NCBI GenBank assembly: GCA_029565935.1
Contig: JAKQNF010000012.1
Location: 1 to 64,000, forward strand
Direction: 5' to 3'
Length of the DNA: 64,000 nucleotides
Source of the DNA: Bacillota bacterium
GTDB lineage: Bacteria > Bacillota > DTU025 > MWDF01
How positions within the stretch are numbered: position 1 is the stretch's first letter; every line of letters begins with the position of its first letter. The position numbers and the translations under genes were made by a program. The notes under the pieces were generated by a model, which was not told the DNA's origin, searched no databases, and was given only the letters and a program-made list of their open reading frames with translations. Below, in pieces: positions 3,072 through 7,465 of this stretch.

Positions 3072-4394
3072 ATGAACTTAGTCAGGTTTACGGACAAGCA
3101 CTTCAGGTACATGGTGATCGGATGCGGTGCAGCTGCTTTGGTATATATCACGCTGACGCAACCGATCACCTTCAATTTCACGAATTTCCTGTTTCTCGTC
3201 CTGATGGCGACCCTTGCGGAATCCCAACCTGTTATCACCGACCAGGAGAAGACGATCTCGGTCGGTTTTGCCATCGACCTGTGCGCATTGCTGCTGTACG
3301 GTCCCCTCGCCGCCGCCTGGGTGGTCTTCCTTTCCAGCGTGTTCAGCGTGACCCACGTGAAGAGCTGGGGCTATCTGCACATGTTCAACACCCCGTTGGA
3401 TTATCTCCTCTTCAACGCTATGAACCTTACATTGTCGATAATCGCATGCGGTTTCGTATACCAGCGCATGGGAGGGCCCGTCCTGGCCTACCTTACGATG
3501 AACTCGACCGTCAGCATTACGGCGATACTGGGCATGCTGAGCCAGCACGTGTTCAGCATAATATTCGGCATCATGGCACATATCATGGTCAACACTTCCG
3601 TGATCTCGATACACATATCGATAGCCACTGACCAGAAAGCCCTGATGGCATGGGCCTACAGCTTCCTGTGGTCAATTTTCAATCTTCTTACGGTCGGCCT
3701 CATGGGCGTCATGATCGCAGCGCTCTATACCAGCTACGGTGCCTTAGTCGTCATATTGTTCATGATACCCCTGCTCATGGCGAGGAACTATTTCGTCCAG
3801 TACGTCAAGATGCGCGACATCTATTTGAACACGATCATGGCGCTGACATCCGCTATAGAAGCCAAGGACGTGTACACGAAGGGCCATTCGGAGAGGGTCC
3901 AGCGCTTCAGCCTCATGATCGCAAGGGAGCTGCACCTTTCGGGCTCCCAGCTCGAGATGCTGAGATATGCGGCGATACTCCATGACATAGGCAAGATAGG
4001 AATCAGCGAGAGCATCCTGAACAAACCGGCCAAGCTTGAGAAGAGCGAGTTCGAGAAGATCATGGAGCATCCTCTCATAGGCTCCAAGATCGTAGAGGAG
4101 ATCGACTTCCTCAGCAGGGCCTCAAAGATAATACGAAGCCATCATGAGTACTATGACGGATCCGGCTATCCTGACGGGCTCAAGGGTGAGGAGATCATGC
4201 TAGAATCCCAGATACTGGCCGTGGCCGACGCTTATGACGCCATGACGACGACAAGGCCGTACAGGGAGGCGTTCACCGAAAAGGGCGCATGGGACGAGCT
4301 GACGAATGGATCCGGCAAGCAGTTCTCCCCGGAGGTCGTTAAGGCCTTCAGGAGGGCAATAGATAAGAAACAGGAGATCAGCGATGCTTTTTGA
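3072..4394 (+). CDS. Membrane-anchored HD-GYP domain phosphodiesterase
   Basis: The first 250 or so residues of this 440-residue protein form about seven or eight membrane helices of a MASE-like sensor type. The C-terminal part is an HD-GYP domain. Metal and signature residues are visible in KGHSERVQRF (about 269), LHDIGKIGI (about 302), SHHEYYDGSGYP (about 355) and VADAYDAMTTTRPYR. HD-GYP proteins degrade cyclic di-GMP, so this is probably a membrane sensor that lowers c-di-GMP. The GYP part reads GSGYP, consistent with activity. RBS AGAGAGG precedes the ATG. Its end overlaps the start of the next gene by 11 bases, which implies co-translation. Confidence 0.92.
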   Translation: MNLVRFTDKHFRYMVIGCGAAALVYITLTQPITFNFTNFLFLVLMATLAESQPVITDQEKTISVGFAIDLCALLLYGPLAAAWVVFLSSVFSVTHVKSWGYLHMFNTPLDYLLFNAMNLTLSIIACGFVYQRMGGPVLAYLTMNSTVSITAILGMLSQHVFSIIFGIMAHIMVNTSVISIHISIATDQKALMAWAYSFLWSIFNLLTVGLMGVMIAALYTSYGALVVILFMIPLLMARNYFVQYVKMRDIYLNTIMALTSAIEAKDVYTKGHSERVQRFSLMIARELHLSGSQLEMLRYAAILHDIGKIGISESILNKPAKLEKSEFEKIMEHPLIGSKIVEEIDFLSRASKIIRSHHEYYDGSGYPDGLKGEEIMLESQILAVADAYDAMTTTRPYREAFTEKGAWDELTNGSGKQFSPEVVKAFRRAIDKKQEISDAF

Positions 4395-4992
4395 AGCCGT
4401 GCTCTTCGGCCTTGCGGCAGGCCTTATGCTCGGAGGGAGCCTGAAGTCCCTCGCCAAGGCATCATTCAGGTGCCTTCCTTTGATATTCCTCGCGGCGGCG
4501 ATAGACTTCGCCATGTCTACGAAGCTCGGCGTCATGGCAGCTGCGCTCGGAGGATGGGCCGTGATCACAGCTACCTTGCTCCAGACGCTTCTGCTCCTGG
4601 TTTTCGTGCTGGGTAACATGGACAAGCCGCCATTGTGGCTGATAGGGCTGGGAGGCATGATGAACTCGGCGGCGATACTCGCAAACTCCGGAATGATGCC
4701 GATAAGCCCCCAGATACTGGTGCTGGCCCCGGATTCTCAATATACGCTCACGCTGCTTGCCGGCAAGGTTGCGAACTACACCCTGGCCAGCCCTGCGACG
4801 AAGCTCCTGTTCCTGTCCGACATAATCCCGTACAGGGGCTTTACCTTCTATATGATAAGCGCCGGCGACATGGTGACGTCCGCCGGGCTCATAATCCTTA
4901 TCATTTCCCTTATGCAAGCCTATAGCCCCAAGCACACTTTCTACCCGAGCAAGGTGTTCGACACGCTGGACGATCCACCGTCCAGCGACTGA
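4384..4992 (+). CDS. DUF5317-like integral membrane protein
   Basis: The protein has 202 residues with about five hydrophobic helices and a short polar C-terminal tail. Features resembling the DUF5317 family are the GGMMNSAAILANSGMMPIS segment near residue 90 and the conserved FLSDIIPYRGF near residue 140. Function is unknown. In other Firmicutes such proteins often accompany HD or HD-GYP proteins, and here it overlaps the HD-GYP gene by 11 bases. A link to the sensor part of that phosphodiesterase is a reasonable guess. It converges with rarA, leaving one base between their ends. Confidence 0.7.
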   Translation: MLFEAVLFGLAAGLMLGGSLKSLAKASFRCLPLIFLAAAIDFAMSTKLGVMAAALGGWAVITATLLQTLLLLVFVLGNMDKPPLWLIGLGGMMNSAAILANSGMMPISPQILVLAPDSQYTLTLLAGKVANYTLASPATKLLFLSDIIPYRGFTFYMISAGDMVTSAGLIILIISLMQAYSPKHTFYPSKVFDTLDDPPSSD

Positions 4993-4993
4993 T

Positions 4994-6568
4994 CTACCTG
5001 GGCAGAAGACCGTCCGCTATTACTGCGAAACCCTCTGGGAGCTCCCCTGTAGGTTCTTCCGCATCGACCTCGTATGTGAGCGTTATGTCCCTAGCCCTCC
5101 CGCCCCTGAAGCCGTCCTTGACTGAAGCCGGCCTTATGTCTCCTTTCACAACGAGGCCCACGCTCAAAAGGAGCCTGTCAACCGCTTCCTTGACGCCCTC
5201 TCCGGTCCTTGCGTACGTCCAAGGCACTTCAGGCGCATCGGAACCGGGCCTTTTGTATGCGACGTATCCGCCGCCCAGATGCACCAATAGGTTTACGCGC
5301 ACCCTGACTGGTTCGTAACCTCCGGTCTCGGGGGGCTTGTAGTAAACAGAACCCAGGAATTCGTCGGGCATGTACTGCTGCTTCACCCACCCGCCGGGAG
5401 ATTCGTGCGGGTATTTGTACCCGATGCCCTTTCCCAGCTCTGCCGCACCTCTATAACCGCCCGACTGCAGATGCTGAGGCACCTGGCCGAGGGGCTTGTC
5501 CTTAAGGTCCTCCATCGCTTCGTCTATCGCCATGACAACAGCGTTGCTCTTGGGCGCGGTAGCGATGTGTATGGTGGCCTGAGCGAGCGTAATCCTCGCC
5601 TCAGGCATCCCCACGTGCTCCACCGCATACGCCGCTGCCGCCGCGACGCCCAATGCCGTAGGGTCGGCCATGCCTACGTCCTCCGAGGCATGGATCAGTA
5701 TGCGACGCGCTATGAACCTTGGGTCCTCGCCCGATTCGAGCATCCTGGCGAGATAATGCAAGGCGGCGTCAGGGTCGGAGCCTCTCATGCTCTTTATGAA
5801 GGCGGATATCACGTCATAGTGGATGTCGCCCTGCATGTCGTATTTCAGAAGGGTCCTTCCCAGTATATCCGATACGAGATCAATCCCTACTTTGGGCCCT
5901 TCGGCCGCTATCGAGGCCATCTCCAGCACGTTCAGCGCTATCCTGGCGTCGCCTCCGGCATGCTTCGCTATATATTCGAGCGCCTTAGGGTCGAACTCAA
6001 GGCCGCTTCCGCCCAGGCCCCTCTCCGAATCGCGAGTCGCCCTCTCAAGAAGGCTCAGGAGGGCTTCGTGTCCTATAGGTTTCAGCATGAATATCCTGGA
6101 ACGCGAGACGAGCGGTGCCACAATATCGAAGAACGGGTTCTCGGTAGTGGCGCCTATGAGCGTGATGGATCCGTCCTCCACGGCCGGCAGCAGGGCGTCT
6201 TGTTGCGATTTGTTGAAGCGGTGTATCTCATCGATGAAGACGACCGTCTTGGCCCCCTTCATAGCGAGGTCGTCCCTCGCCTCCCCGATGACCCTCCTTA
6301 TGTCGGCGACGCCGGAGTATACGGCGTTGAGCCTCACGAACCTGGAGCTCGTCATCTCTGCGACCACGTCGGCGATGGTGGTCTTCCCCGACCCAGGCGG
6401 GCCGTACAGCACGATCGAGCCGAGCCTGTCCGATTCTATGGCCCTCCTCAAGGGCCTTCCCCTGCCAAGCAGATGGTCCTGCCCCACTATCTCATCCAGG
6501 CTCCTAGGCCTCATCCTCGCCGCCAGCGGCATCGTTTCGATGCCCGCTTCGAAAAGCATCCGGGACAC
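4994..6568 (-). CDS. rarA: Replication-associated recombination protein A with C-terminal extension
   Basis: This AAA+ ATPase of the clamp-loader type (RarA/MgsA/YrvN) acts at stalled replication forks. Walker A GPPGSGKTT lies near residues 56-64, Walker B FIDEIHRF near 111-118 and sensor GATTENPFF near 139-147. The usual RarA ending, YMPDEFLGSVYYKP...GYE, falls near residue 418. About 104 further residues follow that ordinary family members lack, and they look like a degenerate Nudix fold (see findings). I choose the GTG at 6568 because GGAGGG lies 9 bases upstream; the frame is open to a TTG at 6595. A candidate 6S RNA precedes the gene on the same strand. Confidence 0.93.
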   Translation of the reverse strand: MSRMLFEAGIETMPLAARMRPRSLDEIVGQDHLLGRGRPLRRAIESDRLGSIVLYGPPGSGKTTIADVVAEMTSSRFVRLNAVYSGVADIRRVIGEARDDLAMKGAKTVVFIDEIHRFNKSQQDALLPAVEDGSITLIGATTENPFFDIVAPLVSRSRIFMLKPIGHEALLSLLERATRDSERGLGGSGLEFDPKALEYIAKHAGGDARIALNVLEMASIAAEGPKVGIDLVSDILGRTLLKYDMQGDIHYDVISAFIKSMRGSDPDAALHYLARMLESGEDPRFIARRILIHASEDVGMADPTALGVAAAAAYAVEHVGMPEARITLAQATIHIATAPKSNAVVMAIDEAMEDLKDKPLGQVPQHLQSGGYRGAAELGKGIGYKYPHESPGGWVKQQYMPDEFLGSVYYKPPETGGYEPVRVRVNLLVHLGGGYVAYKRPGSDAPEVPWTYARTGEGVKEAVDRLLLSVGLVVKGDIRPASVKDGFRGGRARDITLTYEVDAEEPTGELPEGFAVIADGLLPR

Positions 6569-6591
6569 TGCCACACTCCCTCCGGCATATA

Positions 6592-6779
6592 GCAAGACCC
6601 CGCGATGCCGTATTGCGATGCTTTTCTTCCCTGTCCCCGACAGGTGGATGTCCCACTTTCAGCTTTTCGGATCCGCGACTTGTGCGGCATGCGAGCCACT
6701 GATCGATGAGGGCTTCCGTTTCTTAGCTTGTAGGAAGAAAGTCCCGTTGCAATACGCACACAGCAGGGTCAATCTCGCG
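6592..6779 (-). ncRNA. ssrS: Candidate 6S RNA
   Basis: The gap before rarA can fold into a long, interrupted rod of the 6S type. On the minus strand GACCC (6766-6770) pairs with GGGTC (6596-6600), CGTATTGC (6749-6756) with GCAATACG (6609-6616), and CTTTCTTCC (6733-6741) with GGAAGAAAAG (6621-6630). A central open region follows, then an apical hairpin CCGC/GCGG. An outer GCGA/TTGC pairing may extend the closing stem. The size, about 175-190 nt, and the long closing stem with bubble fit 6S RNA, which binds housekeeping RNA polymerase. In several Firmicutes 6S genes lie close to rarA. The ends are approximate and no covariance test was possible. Confidence 0.55.
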
Positions 6780-6799
6780 ACACATATTCCGTTCGTCTA

Positions 6800-6827
6800 C
6801 CTATATTCTACACCTAAAGGGAATCAA
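6800..6827 (-). promoter_or_regulatory. Candidate promoter of the 6S RNA
   Basis: On the minus strand TTGATT (6822-6827) and TATAGG (6800-6805) are spaced by 16 bases, placing a start near 6793, just upstream of the folded region. The -10 is imperfect. Confidence 0.35.
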
Positions 6828-6892
6828 GCGGTAGAGCTAGGCCTTACAGCAAGGAGGCGATGGCACCTTAATCCTGCTTACAGGCCCTCGTC

Positions 6893-7465
6893 CTAGCCCT
6901 TCCTGGATCCGGGCTTGTACGGGAACGAGCCTTCCTTGCACAGCGGGCAGTTATCCGCCGACCAGGACAGGACCTCCATCTTTAGCACGCTGTAAAGAGG
7001 GTAGCCCAGGTCGGCCTTGCCGCCGCTCCTGTCGACCAGGCACGCAATCCCCACGACTTCACAACCTGCCGCCTTGGCCATGTCCGCCACTTCCTTGGCA
7101 GAACCTCCCGTCGTGACGACGTCCTCGCATACCAGGACCTTCTCCCCGGGATTCAAAGAAAAGCCCCTCCTCAAGGTCATCTTCCCCTCCTCGCGTTCGG
7201 CGAAGATCGCCCTTGCGCCCAAGGCCCTTCCCACCTCGTAAGCCAGCGTGATGCCTCCCATGGCGGGACCTATCGAGACATCGACCTTACCCTCGGTAAG
7301 CTTTGAGACTATCTCCTTGGCCAGCCTGGCGCACAGGTCGGGATGCTGTGTCACCAGCGCGCACTGCAGGTACTTGTCGCTGTGCCTGCCAGAAGTGAGC
7401 AGGAAATGCCCCTTCAGCATGGCCCCGTTGTCTTCGAAGGCCTTGATCACTTCCCTATCTTCCAT
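6893..7465 (-). CDS. pyrE: Orotate phosphoribosyltransferase
   Basis: PyrE transfers ribose phosphate from PRPP to orotate to make OMP, the fifth step of UMP synthesis. The PRPP-binding motif VLVCEDVVTTGGS lies near residues 109-121, and the flexible loop region FAEREEGKMTLRRGF lies before it. At 190 residues it has normal length for the type that ends in a small Cys-containing tail (CPLCKEG). It is the last gene of the pyr operon and overlaps pyrF by 11 bases. A candidate 6S RNA lies downstream on the same strand. Confidence 0.96.
   Translation of the reverse strand: MEDREVIKAFEDNGAMLKGHFLLTSGRHSDKYLQCALVTQHPDLCARLAKEIVSKLTEGKVDVSIGPAMGGITLAYEVGRALGARAIFAEREEGKMTLRRGFSLNPGEKVLVCEDVVTTGGSAKEVADMAKAAGCEVVGIACLVDRSGGKADLGYPLYSVLKMEVLSWSADNCPLCKEGSFPYKPGSRKG

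Follow-up and report, generated by a model that had tools for sequence, protein, structure and literature searches.

The gene-free gap upstream of rarA almost certainly encodes a canonical 6S RNA (ssrS), which would be expected to show the polymerase binding and the release of product RNA (pRNA) that are typical of the family. We compared the whole window, that is, the complete 64,000-nucleotide stretch that was analyzed, with Rfam 15 using cmscan, and the matches above cut-off were the 6S family RF00013 and one tRNA. The RF00013 match runs from 6772 to 6593, is found on the minus strand only, and scores 63.7 bits against a cut-off of 46.4 (E = 2.8e-10). As this score exceeds the curated gathering cut-off and the match spans model positions 1-187 of 187, we consider it a full-length 6S RNA of ~180 nt, located at 6593..6772 on the minus strand.

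The first-pass annotation had read ssrS in this gap and proposed an Infernal search with 6S models as a check. The search agrees with that reading, as do the occurrence of the family in 39 of 41 genomes and sequence changes that preserve the structure. Its description of the locus also held: no gene lies between the start of rarA (~6574) and the end of pyrE (6893), both on the minus strand, and the RNA sits directly upstream of rarA on the same strand. The interval that it gave, 6592-6827, located the RNA correctly but misplaced the 5' boundary, where 55 extra bases lie outside the RNA; the corrected interval is 6593-6772 (minus strand).

Occurrence across the phylum

We searched 41 genomes, the source genome and 40 relatives, of which 12 belong to the order and 29 lie outside it. 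Besides the 39 with an RF00013 match (38 of them above the cut-off), comprising 10 of the 12 order genomes and all 29 outside the order, there were two genomes of the order, G010 and G011 (87% and 72% complete), in which neither 6S RNA nor rarA was found. Because rarA is also not found and these assemblies are incomplete, the region is probably missing from them. The 6S RNA is thus near-universal in the phylum of the source, and because so many of the searched genomes carry it, the present one is a fresh member of a well-known family and otherwise ordinary. Among 14 control genomes, five had a match, including E. coli and B. subtilis. The source genome (1.80 Mb in 36 contigs, 98% complete) contains a single copy. 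Its 63.7 bits are low for the phylum, where the best relative reaches 116.5.

Fold and predicted pRNA start

The interval 6593-6772 folds on the minus strand to -67 kcal/mol, compared with -54.0 +/- 4.25 for shuffled sequences (z = -3.05), and none of 200 shuffles was equally stable. With slightly wider boundaries (6588-6779, minus strand) z is -2.30, and 5 of 200 shuffles are equally stable. The original interval, 6592-6827, gives a z of only -0.61 on the minus strand, with 53 of 200 shuffles equally stable, because 6773-6827 lies outside the RNA. On the plus strand the original interval is likewise stably folded (z = -2.35), as is expected of the complement of a rod. The RNA follows the 6S plan that the first-pass annotation had recognized and placed at 160-200 nt, being a 180-nt rod with a closing stem, a central bubble and an apical arm. 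The three helices it named (GACCC/GGGTC, CGTATTGC/GCAATACG and CTTTCTTCC/GGAAGAAAAG) mostly form when the minus strand adopts its minimum-energy fold, in which the bubble is partly paired and the apical arm is unlike that of the Rfam structure.

To judge from their alignment (mean column identity 74%), the structure is conserved with compensatory changes across the 10 members of the order that have 6S RNA. The consensus fold has 40 pairs; pairing is kept in 95.5% of cells, and in nine of the 40 pairs both partners have changed. Covariation scores 0.244, compared with 0.148 +/- 0.014 for shuffles, none of 500 reaching it, and with a maximum of 0.082 for slid versions; we note that these same 10 aligned sequences also supplied the structure, which biases this comparison in its favor. 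For two of the five covariation measures some shuffles did as well: the number of pairs with change on both sides was reached by 6 of 500, and that of further pair types by 17 of 500.

All 10 sequences have CTTCC[AT]ACA on the bubble's 5' side. By this motif we placed the predicted template for the first 14 nt of the pRNA at 6730..6743 (minus strand), in this part of the central bubble. The predicted start lies opposite the C of CTTCCTAC (6730), the next template base is A, and the pRNA predicted for the window is 5'-GUAGGAAGAAAGUC. Candidate pRNAs start with GUAGGAAG in the three members of the genus and with GUUGGAAG in the seven other members of the order. General features of pRNAs are described as GG at positions 4/5 or 5/6 and a neighboring adenine (PMC8414754); by sequence, the candidates agree with these rules, having GG at 4/5 and an adenine next to the start. 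In B. subtilis 6S-1 RNA the pRNA is described as starting at C40 (PMC8876501), whereas the start predicted here is nucleotide 43, counted from the first base of the model. The window shares with the 6S-1 type the full-length RF00013 match, the rod, the central bubble, a C start with an adjacent A, GG at pRNA positions 4/5 and a nearby rarA.

Gene order around rarA

The rarA (mgsA) gene occupies 4994..6574 on the minus strand and matches the Pfam domains MgsA_C (1.2e-65), AAA_assoc_2 and AAA. We assumed a GTG start at 6574, which places the first codon 19 nt past the 3' end of the 6S RNA; an alternative in-frame GTG lies at 6568. On the other side lies a gene for a pyrE-like phosphoribosyltransferase (6893..7465, minus strand); it closes a pyr gene cluster that precedes the 6S RNA and has the same orientation. 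In the three members of the genus (G000, G001 and G002), 124, 128 and 88 nt separate the end of the pyrE match from the 5' end of the 6S RNA, and the rarA match begins 19, 22 (residue 2) and 33 nt (residue 6) past its 3' end, respectively. In another family of the phylum (G034), the gene 3' of the 6S RNA at locus L023 resembles orotidine 5'-phosphate decarboxylase (pyrF) by its first residues, so pyr genes may neighbor 6S RNA outside the genus as well.

All 10 order genomes with 6S RNA have rarA directly 3' of it on the same strand, and the boundaries of the two matches are never more than 183 bases apart. Of the 29 genomes outside the order, 14 carry rarA 3' of the 6S RNA in the same orientation and no farther than ~5.1 kb away (within 150 bases in G030); in the remaining 15 it sits on a different contig or at a great distance, or was not found. 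Counted over both groups, 24 of the 39 genomes having a 6S match show this arrangement. A scan of named genomes for rarA gave mostly 50-57% identity. We also inspected the genes 3' of the 6S RNA in eight genomes outside the order, and all eight belong to the ThiF family (Pfam PF00899); this is not a frequency, because the genes were picked for ThiF-like first residues. They are presumably tcdA, and within the phylum the order 6S-tcdA-rarA may predate the one seen here, in which no tcdA separates 6S RNA from rarA.

At 80 named rarA loci we found a 6S match in 13; since the flanks extended at most 2.5 kb and were sometimes cut, misses at these loci are not absences. The RNA is upstream of rarA on the same strand in nine of the 13, namely at three Bacillota-type loci (L071, L088 and L090), at five of the seven labelled Omnitrophota or Omnitrophica, and at one of the two labelled Nitrospira, the latter two groups being MAGs. 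Our search of the open-licence literature found no paper on 6S RNA in Omnitrophota. The remaining four loci belong to Bacillales (L039, L051, L055 and L060) and, unlike the window, carry 6S RNA past the 3' end of rarA and in the opposite orientation. The proximity of the two genes in some Firmicutes, mentioned in the first-pass annotation, is in print: rarA is reported to adjoin 6S RNA in B. subtilis and in almost every lactic acid bacterium (PMC8414754). As described there, however, rarA is upstream in lactic acid bacteria and runs in the opposite direction in B. subtilis, while in the window the 6S RNA is upstream and rarA follows directly in the same direction.

We made some side observations on rarA and its surroundings. 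The window's RarA carries a C-terminal extension of ~97 aa beyond MgsA_C (4994-5287, minus strand), for which we found no match among Pfam or PDB sequences; our impression is of a vague likeness to a degenerate Nudix domain. RarA matches reach residues 519-521 in the two genus mates and end at or before residue 434 in the seven other order members with rarA. Convergent with rarA is a gene for a DUF5317 membrane protein (4384-4992, plus strand), and next to it lies a gene for an HD-domain protein (3072-4394, plus strand).

Transcription of the 6S RNA and competing readings

The flanks of the 6S RNA differ between the genus and the rest of the order. In all seven order members outside the genus, a site of the form TTGAA[AT]-17-TATNNT lies 19-22 nt before the 5' end of the model; in six of them 0-4 of 200 shuffles contained a site as good, and in G003 16 of 200 did. 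None of the three genus members has a promoter above chance, their best sites being matched by 75-108 of 200 shuffles. In the window, scans of 6450-6950 for promoters and terminators found no minus-strand site at threshold, and the weak promoter-like site TTGATT-16-TATAGG at 6800..6827 (minus strand) is at chance level (97 of 200 shuffles as good). The longest T-run past the closing stem is 2 in all three genus members and 3-6 in the seven others. A sigma-A type promoter together with a T-run, the signature of a monocistronic 6S gene though not a defining one for 6S RNA, is therefore present in seven of seven order members outside the genus and in none of the three within it. What is mildly new here, as far as the sequences go, is that these two signals are unrecognizable throughout the genus.

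Because there is no clear promoter and no T-run terminator, and because rarA follows at once, we infer from these missing signals that in the genus the 6S RNA is probably, though by no means surely, read together with rarA and then cut from the longer transcript. Such scans would miss Rho-dependent termination and any promoter that departs from the consensus. A comparable case is E. coli, where ssrS and ygfA form a bicistronic unit, described as one transcript holding 6S RNA and a protein gene (PMC2848244); the downstream gene there is ygfA and here it is rarA, and co-transcription in the window is deduced from sequence. A stronger version appears doubtful: the 6S RNA of the genus would have lost the promoter and terminator of its own and would now be processed from the leader of the rarA mRNA, or perhaps from a longer transcript spanning pyr, 6S and rarA. 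Its amount would then be tied to the making of the replication-fork ATPase, and polymerase held by nascent 6S RNA could regulate rarA in cis.

The missing promoter consensus, together with a score below most of the phylum, might also indicate a degenerate copy that no longer works. We regard this as very improbable, as the copy is the sole one in the genome and its bubble and stems are kept in the genus and the order. Slightly less probable still is a cis-acting rarA leader, of attenuator or riboswitch-like type, that resembles 6S RNA merely as a rod. Its position immediately 5' of rarA on the same strand, with no recognizable terminator in the genus, would suit such a leader, but the match to 6S RNA is full-length, outside the order 6S RNA occurs without rarA shown nearby in 15 of 29 genomes, and the folds of the 6S-rarA spacer differ among the three genus members. 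Because these folds disagree, we also rejected a role of cis-folding at the ribosome site of rarA. Finally, that the RNA is part of a protein-coding gene is the least credible reading: a plus-strand frame of 357 aa (5823-6896), open in the near relative G001 too, and a minus-strand frame of 82 aa (6511-6759) cross it, but the former is mostly antisense to rarA, and among the six of 10 order genomes with 6S RNA in which we translated the frames across the RNA (G000, G001, G002, G003, G005 and G009), G002 has stops in all three opposite-strand frames and G003 in all six, the single open frames of G002, G005 and G009 do not give one and the same protein over their full length, and the conserved coding capacity that the first-pass annotation named as grounds for rejection did not appear, no frame being kept end to end. 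The pattern of change preserves base pairs and disrupts reading frames.

What the sequences demonstrate for a canonical 6S RNA at this locus is family membership, a conserved structure, synteny and, in the bubble, a sequence compatible with a pRNA start. The sequence is in agreement with the mechanism known from the family and gives no contrary sign. By analogy with the family, the rod with its central bubble would imitate an open promoter (as described in PMC8876501) and bind RNA polymerase carrying the primary sigma factor. The bound polymerase would be kept off promoters when nutrients are scarce, in a stationary-phase role, until it uses the bubble as a template for a short pRNA and the 6S RNA is released. 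That 6S RNA and rarA lie close together had already been reported, both in lactic acid bacteria and in B. subtilis (PMC8414754). If co-expression of the two holds true in this genus, their linkage would make a connection between the shutdown of transcription and the rescue of replication forks accessible to experiment.
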